Below are positions 5,385 through 63,935 of a stretch of DNA of 64,000 nt, one piece after another. A program made the translations under genes and the position numbers. A model generated the notes under the pieces. That model worked only from the letters and a program-made list of their open reading frames with translations. It had not been told where the DNA came from and searched no databases. Location of the stretch: assembly GCF_019823065.1 (NCBI RefSeq), contig NZ_CP081966.1, positions 6,216,779 to 6,280,778 on the forward strand, written 5' to 3'. Positions within the stretch are counted from its first letter, which is position 1. Every line of letters begins with the position of its first letter. The stretch is from Pseudomonas mosselii. Lineage in GTDB: Bacteria > Pseudomonadota > Gammaproteobacteria > Pseudomonadales > Pseudomonadaceae.

Positions 5385-6914
5385 TCAGCGCCGCCAAGCC
5401 TTGCGCAGACGCATCAACGCATCCGCTATCTGCGCCTCCGGCACCGCGGCAAACCCCAGCACCAACCCTGCCCTGTTATCCACTGGCTCCTCGCTATCCT
5501 CCAGCCAGTAGCTGCTCAGCGGATTGACCTCCACCCCCACCGCTTCCGCCCGAGCCACCAGCTCCTGCTCCCGCGCGAAGTTATCCACATCTACCTTCAC
5601 ATGCAGCCCCGCCGCCACCACGGGCATGGCCCCCAGCCCTGGCACGTCCTGCGGCCAGCCTGCCTTGAGCACATTGCGCCGCGCCAGCGCAGCCCGGCGC
5701 ATGCGGCGGATATGCCGCTGGAAATGCCCCTGGGCCATGAATTGCGCCATCACGCACTGGGTGCCGACCTCCGAATGGCGTACCGCCAGCGCCCGGCATC
5801 GACTGAACGCCTGCACCAGACGCCCGGGAAGCACCAGGTATCCCAGGCGCAAGGCCGGAAGCGCGATCTTGCCGAAGGTCCCCACGTACAGCACTCGCCC
5901 CTGGCGGTCCAGCGAGGCCAGTGGCGCCAGCGGCACACCGCTGTAACGGTACTCGCCGTCGTAGTCGTCCTCGAGGATCCAGCCATCCTGGCGCTCGGCC
6001 CAATCCAGCAGCGACAGGCGACGGGCCAGGCTCATGGTAACGCCCGTGGGGTACTGGTGGGCAGGCGTCACGTAGGCCAGCCGACACTCGGGCATCTCGG
6101 TCAGCCTTGCGCAGTCCATGCCCTCGGCATCCACCGGCACGCCCTTGAGCGTGGCCCCGGCCATCGCGAAGGCATGCCCGGCAGCCCGGTAGCCCGGGTT
6201 TTCCACAGCCACGCCATCGCCCGGTTGCAGCAGCAGCTGTGCACAAAGGCTGATGGCCTCCTGCGCGCCACTGGTGATCACTATTTGTTCAGCCGTGCAG
6301 CTAAGCCCCCGCGAGCGTCGCAGGTAGGTGGCAATCAATTCACGCAGCTGCCACTCACCGGCCGGGTCGCCATAGCCCAGCAACGCCGGGTCGGGATTTC
6401 GCCAGAAACCCGCTTGCAGCTTGGCCCACACCTCGAACGGGAACAGGTCGAACGCCGGCACGCCGACGCGAAAAGCCTTGGGCGCCCCGCCTCTGGGCAG
6501 CGGCAAATGATGATTCTTCAGACGTTGCAGGGGCTCGCTGATGACTGCCTGCCTGGATAAATCCTCAGTATCTGAAGCACTATATGTGGATAAGTCTGTT
6601 GATAACCCCAGGGATAACCCTGTTGATAATTGTGTGGATAGTTTCGGCAGCTGGCTCACATAGGTGCCATCGCCAACCCGGCTCTCGATGAAGCCCTCCG
6701 CATACAGCTGGTCGTAGGCTCGCACCACGCTGTTACGCGACAGCATCAGCATCGCCGCCAAATCGCGGGTGGCCGGCAACCGCGTGCCGCTGCCCAGGCG
6801 CCCATCCAGCACCCTGGCGCGCAAGGCATGGTAGAGCTGCTGGCTCAGCCCGCGGCGGCGGTCCAGGACAATACCCGCGGGGTCGAAAGGCAGAGGATGG
6901 CAACGTTCGCTCAT
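5385..6914 (-). CDS. MocR-family regulator (GntR-type HTH fused to aminotransferase-like domain)
   Basis: MocR proteins bind DNA through an N-terminal GntR winged helix and sense ligand through a PLP-dependent aminotransferase fold. In this 509-aa protein the HTH spans about residues 10-80 (LPATRDLAAMLMLSRNSVVRAY). The fold-type-I domain spans about 140-509, with DDYDGEYRY (about 318) and the PLP lysine in GTFGKIALPALRLGY (about 347) intact. The gene is divergent from a PaiB-like gene across a 90-bp gap with an inverted repeat, so that gene is the likely target. The linker (about residues 92-110) is odd: it reads LST-Q/G/D/Y repeats encoded by a 12-bp periodic array of DnaA-box-like sequences with rare TTA leucine codons. 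Confidence 0.9.
   Translation of the reverse strand: MSERCHPLPFDPAGIVLDRRRGLSQQLYHALRARVLDGRLGSGTRLPATRDLAAMLMLSRNSVVRAYDQLYAEGFIESRVGDGTYVSQLPKLSTQLSTGLSLGLSTDLSTYSASDTEDLSRQAVISEPLQRLKNHHLPLPRGGAPKAFRVGVPAFDLFPFEVWAKLQAGFWRNPDPALLGYGDPAGEWQLRELIATYLRRSRGLSCTAEQIVITSGAQEAISLCAQLLLQPGDGVAVENPGYRAAGHAFAMAGATLKGVPVDAEGMDCARLTEMPECRLAYVTPAHQYPTGVTMSLARRLSLLDWAERQDGWILEDDYDGEYRYSGVPLAPLASLDRQGRVLYVGTFGKIALPALRLGYLVLPGRLVQAFSRCRALAVRHSEVGTQCVMAQFMAQGHFQRHIRRMRRAALARRNVLKAGWPQDVPGLGAMPVVAAGLHVKVDVDNFAREQELVARAEAVGVEVNPLSSYWLEDSEEPVDNRAGLVLGFAAVPEAQIADALMRLRKAWRR
6585..6641 (-). repeat. five-unit 12-bp DnaA-box-like array inside the MocR coding sequence
   Basis: Read on the minus strand, units start every 12 bp: CTATCCACA (6633-6641), TTATCAACA (6621-6629), TTATCCCTG (6609-6617), TTATCAACA (6597-6605), TTATCCACA (6585-6593). 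A sixth relative, TTATCCAGG, is at 6552-6560 out of register. The last unit of the array is a perfect DnaA box and the others differ from it by one to three bases. All have the same orientation and encode Leu-Ser-Thr-type repeats. Confidence 0.75.
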
Positions 6915-58963: not shown

Positions 58964-59488
58964 GCACCTCGTGCCTGTTTTTGCGAATAGAGAAGGTAAG
59001 CGGACAAGTATAGGGACTTACCGCCCTTCAAAGAAACCTTCTGAGCAAAAAATGAGCAGGCTGTGGATGAGTGGCAGGTAAAAGAAAACAAGTAGGAAAA
59101 ATTTAAAAAAGCTTTGTTTTTATGTTTATGTTTAGGCACCTATCCACATGTGGATAAGTTACCTAAGCCCTTTCACTGTGTGGCTTTGCCGGAATCATAA
59201 CCCTGTGGTGTAGTAGGCTTGGGGGTTCTGGATAACGGCGTGTAACCTGTGGATTAAAGTGTCGATTACCCACAGGCGGGTTTGTCCTCAGAAAAAAAGG
59301 CCAGTTATCAACGGAGCTGATGGCGAGTTTTCCACAGAGCTCCTGGGCCTGAAATCTCATCTGTGGATGACGGCTTGGGCGGCGGGCCTACAGATACCGC
59401 AGACCAAGCCGGCTCTCGCCCTACCCGGATCACAGGCAAAAAAAAGCCGCTCCAGACAGAAGCGGCCTTGTTATCGAAGGGCTGTGGA
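58964..59488. promoter_or_regulatory. AT-rich DnaA-box cluster between mnmE and mnmG
   Basis: This 525-bp non-coding stretch holds DnaA-box-like sites at 59062-59070, 59140-59148, 59149-59157 (exact), 59227-59235, 59248-59256, 59266-59274, 59305-59313 and 59362-59370. Two of them abut head to head, forming the palindrome TATCCACATGTGGATA (59141-59156). An AT-rich tract (59079-59135) lies beside them. The mnmG promoter must also be here. No gene is visible. Confidence 0.7.
59438..59469 (-). terminator. Rho-independent terminator of mnmE
   Basis: On the minus strand AGCGGC/GCCGCT arms (59446-59451 and 59461-59466) form a hairpin followed by eight T (complement of A 59438-59445), 20 bp past the mnmE stop. 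Confidence 0.8.
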
Positions 59489-63569: not shown

Positions 63570-63935
63570 TGCTAACCTGAAAGCGGGCAAATCAAAAAAA
63601 CAGAAGAGGCATATAAAAAGCTTTTCTGAAGAACTTATAGATCTTAAGTGGATAACCTTCTGTGGATAACCTTCTCAAGGCCACGATTGACGTACTGTAC
63701 AGAAAATCACAACCTTGTCGGTAAGGAGTGTTCTGTCTGTGTCCCGCATGAGGAAAACCTGTGCGGGAAAAGGTGCTTTATCCACAGGTGCTTTATCCAC
63801 AGCCCAGAACCCAGGGTTGTGCATAGCCCTCATGTGTCGTTATCCACAGGGCTTATCAACAGTGGCCGAAGGGTATTCAAGTCGTTTTTTGGCGGATTTA
63901 CCCTGATAGTGGGTGGCGTCACGTGTGGATAACTG
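63570..63935. other. oriC: chromosomal replication origin oriC
   Basis: Between rpmH and dnaA. Exact DnaA boxes TTATCCACA (either strand): 63661-63669, 63778-63786, 63793-63801, 63841-63849, 63924-63932. Near matches are 63647-63655 (TTATCCACT) and 63854-63862 (TTATCAACA). An AT-rich tract (about 63585-63647), a likely unwinding element, lies left of the boxes. This is the Pseudomonas oriC position. The 63420-63569 part holds the rpmH promoter and nothing else I can name. Confidence 0.9.

Follow-up and report, generated by a model that had tools for sequence, protein, structure and literature searches.

The coding sequence of a PdxR-type MocR regulator gene (mocR) in the 64,000-nucleotide stretch analyzed here (the window) carries five DnaA-box-like 9-mers in a phased array and a second conserved patch, designated as E1 and E2, further downstream. 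We characterized this locus by its sequence, phase, synonymous constraint and internal spacing, by the co-occurrence and co-loss of its two parts and by its nearness to dnaA. Array and patch almost certainly form an element selected at the DNA level, and the data suggest that a replication-control site is written over mocR near the origin in many Pseudomonas.

Much work has been done on extra-origin loci that control DnaA in E. coli and in a few other bacteria. Literature searches, which had most subscription journals outside their coverage, returned no such locus for Pseudomonas and no description of the array or patch locus itself. No DnaA ChIP data for Pseudomonas were found in literature searches.

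Organization of the element within mocR

The minus strand from 6641 to 6585 reads CTATCCACA-CAA-TTATCAACA-GGG-TTATCCCTG-GGG-TTATCAACA-GAC-TTATCCACA. An earlier note on this DNA had described five DnaA-box-like 9-mers in a single orientation with starts exactly 12 bp apart, and this arrangement was read directly (Table 1). The array encodes LST.LST.LSL.LST.LST at residues 92–110, and the LST-type peptide does fall between the HTH and aminotransferase domains, as had been claimed. The open reading frame scored 421.8 bits against the NCBIfam MocR-like PdxR model NF052282 (cut-off, 320 bits). Since the Pfam GntR match stops at residue 86 and the aminotransferase match begins at residue 156, the array lies in the linker, whose flexibility is read from these domain limits only. 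The array has a GC content of 42%, compared with 65% for the gene. The rare leucine codons pointed out earlier were found in the orthologues as well: TTA and CTA account for 86% of Leu codons in the array columns and 3.7% outside the linker region, and ACA accounts for 97.6% and 6.6% of Thr codons, respectively (108 orthologues).

Table 1 Features of the mocR locus and the oriC region in the window.
Feature	Position	Strand	Sequence and basis
PdxR-type MocR regulator gene, hosts the element	5385..6914	-	509-aa ORF; NCBIfam and Pfam matches
Box 1	6633..6641	-	CTATCCACA; 8/9 against consensus TT[A/T]TNCACA
Box 2	6621..6629	-	TTATCAACA; direct reading
Box 3	6609..6617	-	TTATCCCTG; weakest, 6/9 against DnaA consensus in own genome
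Box 4	6597..6605	-	TTATCAACA; direct reading
Box 5	6585..6593	-	TTATCCACA; full consensus
Degenerate box	6552..6560	-	TTATCCAGG; direct reading
Box 6 slot	6539..6547	-	TTATCCACA in 74/110 unique anchored loci; absent in own genome
E1	6276..6290	-	GAACAAATAGTGATC; fits Fis consensus GNNYANNNNNTRNNC; conserved block 6293-6273
E2	6237..6248	-	CTTTGTGCACAG; contains palindromic DnaA-like box TTGTGCACA at 6246-6238
oriC region, left part (for comparison)	63648..63932	.	Exact and near DnaA boxes

The 12-bp repeat was also detected by TRF. Allowing up to two mismatches, TTATCNACANNNTTATCNACA matched three times in the window (two in the array and one at 59248), where 0.01 matches would be expected. 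Across the complete own genome, the pattern TTATCNACAN{0,30}TTATCNACA was found at the array (2) and at oriC (2) only, with 0 matches for the reversed control; direct pairs of TTATCNACA at most 30 bp apart are thus confined to these two places. Box 5 is likely the anchor of the array.

The sixth box relative claimed at 6552 is present, and its residues (119–121) show no conservation across orthologues. A better-conserved sixth box was found at a neighboring slot. Its start lay 46 bp past box 5 in 74 of 110 loci and 34 bp past it in one, and the box was absent in 35. This set contained 118 anchored loci out of 148, 110 of them unique, and its pattern demands TTATCCACA as box 5, so that box-5 counts in it are no evidence. 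Box 6 is read in another frame (gTT ATC CAC A), giving VIH rather than LST. The same DNA word therefore occurs in two frames, which argues against explanations by peptide or codon rarity. The exact IHF consensus WATCAANNNNTTR occurred in none of the 110 loci within 400 bp of box 5 on either strand; one-mismatch IHF sites were recurrent in 32 loci, where they overlap box 5, and in 20 loci.

Toward the 3′ end of mocR, two DnaA-like boxes on the plus strand (5581–5589 and 5476–5484) face the array, and their slots hold TTATC[CA]ACA in 24 and 30 of 74 relatives, respectively. They were rejected as further parts of the element, codon-by-codon conservation being absent.

The second element, at 6293–6237, lies 303–347 bp downstream of box 5. 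It was not in the earlier note, and the locus is therefore composite rather than a single patch. The constrained columns outside the array are GCT GAR CAA ATW GTG ATC ACC (residues 208–214) and AGC CTT TGT GCA CAG (residues 222–226). We scanned for carrier-specific codons, defined as codons present in at least 93% of 114 carriers and in at most 45% of the 21 non-carriers with the same residue. Outside the array, the scan returned only residues 210, 223–225 and 165, the last with an amino-acid change; only E1 and E2 are fairly compared in it, because the linker residues of non-carriers are arbitrarily aligned. Residues 163–168, also low in third-position change, were rejected as a further part, being not carrier-specific save at 165.

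The E1 sequence GARCAAATWGTGATC matches the published Fis consensus GNNYANNNNNTRNNC (PMC4585315, PMC4245941; these and the other papers are cited for their accessible parts), and P. putida Fis sites at lapA were compared with the E. coli consensus (PMC5612765). The variable bases of E1 (R and W) coincide with the free positions of the Fis consensus. A tightened Fis motif, with WWW at the center, was present at E1 in 113/114 carriers and 1/21 non-carriers; over the carriers' aminotransferase domains, 119,616 bases of sequence, it occurred 114 times in total. The constraint exceeds the Fis core: the GCT ahead of the core keeps its T in 114/114 carriers, and the extended constraint forms a TGA-N-CA / TG-N-TCA dyad. 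Because free positions and the preceding GCT are also constrained, the motif is possibly wider or belongs to another regulator. E1 was recognized as a putative Fis site after the fact, and its dyad could be read by another regulator.

Every base of E2 is kept in 112–114 of the 114 carriers, and its codons are free in the 21 non-carriers. TTGTGCACA is one base, at position 3, from the DnaA consensus TT[A/T]TNCACA (PMC8682772). The distance from box 5 to E1 is 303 bp in 104 of 109 loci and 291 bp in one, the other four having no strict E1; that to E2 is 347 bp in 107 of 109 and 335 bp in one, with E2 absent in the remaining locus. This spacing spans a fast-changing part of the linker.

Synonymous constraint, distribution and loss

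Orthologues were drawn from 57 genomes and 80 named loci, a sample that favors carriers because it came from best-identity lists. The constraint set comprised 112 of the loci L001–L113 (L030 was left out, its frame being broken), 108 after removal of near-identical sequences and 104 with the array. Fitch steps were counted per codon in these 104 non-redundant carriers on a tree of the mocR gene without the linker.

The array showed 7.7 third-position and 7.5 amino-acid steps per codon, compared with 24.6 and 7.6 in the rest of the gene. The low third-position value resides in the boxes (5.1) rather than the spacers (17.3). When the 15 box codons were compared with the 441 others, third positions differed strongly (Mann-Whitney p 1.8e-8) and amino acids did not (p 0.90), both values taking codons as independent. 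Box codons thus had about five-fold fewer third-position changes than the rest of the gene, with amino acids changing at the average rate. No 19-codon window was as low as the array at third positions (0/417 overlapping, 0/23 non-overlapping).

The earlier note had raised selection on the DNA itself as a possibility and proposed to look for synonymous conservation of the TTATC core under free amino-acid drift. This pattern was seen in the orthologues. The third-position and amino-acid steps of the 104 carriers support DNA-level selection, because third positions in the boxes are conserved and amino acids drift at the average rate. None of the 104 carriers showed, within the array columns, the same peptide with unrelated codons, which would have spoken against it. 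The box base is kept even at positions with a different residue: Val is GTA in 49/56 cases, Ile is ATA in 11/11 and Phe is TTT in 40/40. No indel occurs in the 57-bp array of the 104 carriers, though linker length varies. Box 5 is unchanged at every position in 104/104; two divergent genomes sampled afterwards, G077 and G115 (L128 and L129), have TTGTCCACA instead. Box 1 has TCC in 104/104 and ACA in 102/104. The inner boxes vary more freely among the 104 carriers, box 2 being GTATCCACA in 49, CTGTCCACA in 21, CTATCCACA in 12 and other sequences in the rest, box 3 TTTTCAACA in 29 and TTGTCAACA in 15, and box 4 TTATCAACA in 33, TTACCCACA in 33 and TTATCCCCA in 19. Extra LST peptides just outside the array use other codons, CTC TCC ACC (L045), CTC TCC ACT (L046) and TTG TCC ACG (L083), which fits DNA-level selection.

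As a separate observation, the mocR linker of one genome (L029 of G010) has an in-frame insertion of about 27 codons adjoining the array, which we take to be possibly a REP-like element; array and patch are retained there.

The strict array pattern was found in 291 of 398 Pseudomonas genomes and the strict patch pattern in 277. Both were present in 256 genomes, the array only in 35, the patch only in 21 and neither in 86. The six patch-only genomes read out of 21 (G077, G086, G087, G115, G151 and G157) all turned out to have an array that had escaped the strict pattern, and the three array-only genomes read out of 35 (G022, G073 and G393) have an intact E2, their E1 differing at one or a few bases. 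The class with neither includes at least one variant carrier (G137). Of 30 genomes in which the strict array pattern had no match, 27 yielded a mocR locus. Seven of these loci do have arrays, which that pattern had failed to detect (L122, L123 and L125–L129), two have decayed arrays (L139 and L148), one is a loss (L124) and 17 have none, the linker of one of the 17 (L144) being left unread. The deep loci L139 and L148 have kept E2. A direct pair in G058 was rejected as a relict array, as it sits in an unrelated open frame.

Non-carriers form one clade of 21 loci (support 1.0) in a genus gene tree with a distant outgroup, and their linkers are 41–46 aa long where read. Losses also occurred among carriers. 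In G150, G285 and G295 the gene is intact with a 60-aa linker without boxes and CTG TGT GCG CAG at E2; array, box 6, Fis consensus and E2 codons are all gone. The search for loss genomes gave nine loci from ten genomes, of which L167 and L168 were read. On a tree of the aminotransferase domain without the E1/E2 codons, which is one gene's tree, G285 and G295 are sisters (1.0) and G150 groups with carriers in a different subclade (0.97, 0.98). Parsimony thus gives two joint losses of array and patch, each with the gene intact. This is the strongest sign that array and patch are one unit and that the protein has no need of them. The element is not essential to the genus, since one well-supported clade is without it and losses occur among carriers too.

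Position relative to dnaA and other DnaA boxes

The window ends at the contig end (6,280,778), and the DnaA domain begins at C1:517, at the other end. If the contig is circular, the array therefore lies about 57.4 kb from dnaA, in agreement with the earlier figure of about 57 kb from oriC. In 21 of 22 carriers with both on one contig, the distance is 50–158 kb; the distances were worked by hand, four assume a circular contig, and seven carriers with separate contigs were excluded. An intact locus in G029 (L120, G029:C1:4370000-4381000) is 1.34 Mb from dnaA, perhaps a natural relocation by rearrangement, and nearness to oriC is thus not strict. Position is not independent evidence, because in the non-carriers G008 and G013 the mocR gene is also 65–92 kb from dnaA.

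Exact TTATCCACA occurs 106 times in the genome (reversed control, 12); the window holds 25 of these copies and the first 103 kb another 20. Thus 45/106 lie within 167 kb around dnaA, 2.7% of the chromosome, these limits being chosen after the fact. Crowding of DnaA boxes near the origin in E. coli was taken to favor titration (PMC12371093). The 12 boxes upstream of P. putida dnaA are described as being of no known role (PMC8203912).

Other box-rich places were noticed. On the opposite side of dnaA, a 26-kb stretch (G000:C1:77464-103421; L159 and L160) holds 16 of the 106 exact TTATCCACA, some within long open frames and some outside. The sequence TTATCAACAGA[GC]TTATCCACA, a direct pair at a 12-bp step whose flank (TTGTCAAAG) is conserved, occurs at L149:2029-2049, L150:2051-2071 and L151:1954-1974; it lies close to where an open frame, presumably dprA, begins, about 28–33 kb right of dnaA in G015 and G003, and is also found in G151. 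In another genus of the same order, a 12-bp pair TTATCGACAGTGTTATCCACA lies about 8 kb from dnaA (G036:C1:228437-228457).

Possible function and relation to known systems

DnaA is very probably the ligand of the element. A role in the control of DnaA or of initiation is probable to a lesser degree, and a negative, datA-like sign is possible but doubtful. We infer from the sequence data that DnaA and Fis would bind, act jointly and affect initiation. In the proposed mechanism, array and patch would be a single cis-acting locus within the mocR coding sequence, kept by DNA-level selection, in which a 9-mer box equals three codons and the 12-bp step four. DnaA would occupy box 5, the full-consensus box, first, and ATP-DnaA would then extend head-to-tail across the weaker boxes 4 to 1 at 3-bp gaps. 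In E. coli, a single strong box starts the ATP-DnaA oligomer, which forms best where boxes are 2–3 bp apart, and such an oligomer displaces Fis at DARS2 (PMC8682772). Fis at E1 would bend the DNA and carry E2 with its DnaA toward the array. Because it lies near oriC, the locus would be duplicated soon after initiation, and might then cut free or active DnaA by titration or ATP hydrolysis, as datA does; alternatively, Fis might switch it with growth phase, as at DARS2. In the own genome, Fis scored above the cut-off and SeqA had no match. With these two results, our best guess is that the locus senses or sets how much ATP-DnaA there is shortly after initiation.

The reading that survives best beside this one is that DnaA and Fis act here as transcription factors, controlling mocR by a roadblock in the ORF or through an internal promoter, with replication uninvolved; this would tie a PLP-dependent MocR regulator to the cell cycle. 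The element does lie within the gene in carriers, and DnaA is a transcription factor elsewhere (PMC8203912). However, the sites begin about 270 bp into the ORF and extend to about 677 bp, the gene remains intact where the element is lost, and G034 (L114) keeps array, box 6 and patch with the frame broken just upstream of the array, although this is one genome and a sequencing error is possible. We consider this reading unlikely.

Recognition of the 12-bp repeat by a DNA-binding protein other than DnaA is more improbable still. Boxes 2 and 3 deviate from the DnaA consensus, and the E1 dyad is readable by other regulators. Against this, boxes 5 and 6 are exact DnaA consensus, close direct pairs of the motif elsewhere in the own genome occur only at oriC, and TTATCCACA is enriched near dnaA (45/106, within limits chosen after the fact). 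The MocR protein itself is a less likely reader of the array, published MocR motifs having two to four repeats, mostly with TGT or TGG (PMC5320631).

An mRNA-level signal or a codon-rarity pause between the two protein domains has very little probability, although rare codons do cluster at the domain boundary. Identity rather than rarity is kept, as box 5 has TTA and never the equally rare CTA in 104 carriers; box 6 repeats the 9-mer in a second frame, where it uses the common codon ATC; and E2 was gained and lost with the array. Selection for an LST linker or neutral tandem-repeat expansion, to which the conserved LST peptides and the TRF repeat would point, is refuted by the codon data, since box amino acids change at the gene average and third positions do not, orthologues with 41–46 aa linkers or a lost array have an intact gene, and neutral repeats would not remain 104/104. 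Repeat expansion of one box-like unit, offered earlier as the alternative, possibly explains the origin of the array and leaves the conservation of box 5 in 104/104 unexplained. Peptide selection, codon-rarity pausing and neutral repeat were all set aside on the codon data.

An extra-origin DnaA-control locus overprinted on mocR and working like datA or DARS2 is, in our judgment, somewhat better than an even prospect. A wider version falls a little short of even: a DnaA-control center with an ATP-DnaA track, a Fis switch and a distal box, overprinted on the gene across the putida/fluorescens/syringae-type lineage and gained or lost as a unit, in which the replication site would have shaped the linker and would replace datA and DARS as well as the SeqA that is missing here. 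The locus is a clear case of a cis-acting chromosome site that dictates codons and a protein linker and is invisible to gene annotation. The candidate offers base-resolution constraint, natural loss strains and a synonymously recodable host gene, and titration versus switching thereby becomes testable in another gammaproteobacterial lineage.

The array has the same form as the substrate of ATP-DnaA oligomers in E. coli, with one full-consensus box and four weaker boxes at 3-bp gaps. It also resembles, in layout only, the low-affinity arrays of E. coli oriC, in which graded head-to-tail boxes are anchored by a strong box. Like E. coli datA, the locus is a cluster of DnaA boxes outside oriC but on the oriC side of the chromosome, with conserved boxes and early doubling. 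datA acts by means of IHF and ATP-DnaA oligomers, and its transfer to the terminus gave untimely initiations in rich medium (PMC5742627). In datA, however, which is intergenic, an essential IHF site lies between the spaced boxes, whereas the present five-box 12-bp array lies inside an ORF (5385–6914), accompanied by a Fis-like site but by no exact match to the IHF consensus. E. coli DARS2, which frees DnaA of ADP, likewise has a full-consensus box beside low-match boxes at 2–3 bp (V, V-a to V-c), and it has Fis sites, to which the consensus match at E1 may correspond. It differs in its conserved three-box core (I–III) and IHF sites IBS1-2 and is described as non-coding; E1 lies about 300 bp from the array, and the DARS2 core is set apart here by description only. 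We did not file the locus as datA or DARS2, since it lies within a gene and the scan gave no exact match to the IHF consensus. Clusters of DnaA boxes in B. subtilis and Streptomyces, likened here by description, are also extra-origin and thought to hold DnaA, but belong to other phyla; they are said to repress untimely initiation (PMC5742627). With several closely packed boxes whose sequence and place are conserved, the mocR locus is best classed, from its sequence, as a putative variant of the extra-origin DnaA-box cluster that is neither datA nor DARS2.
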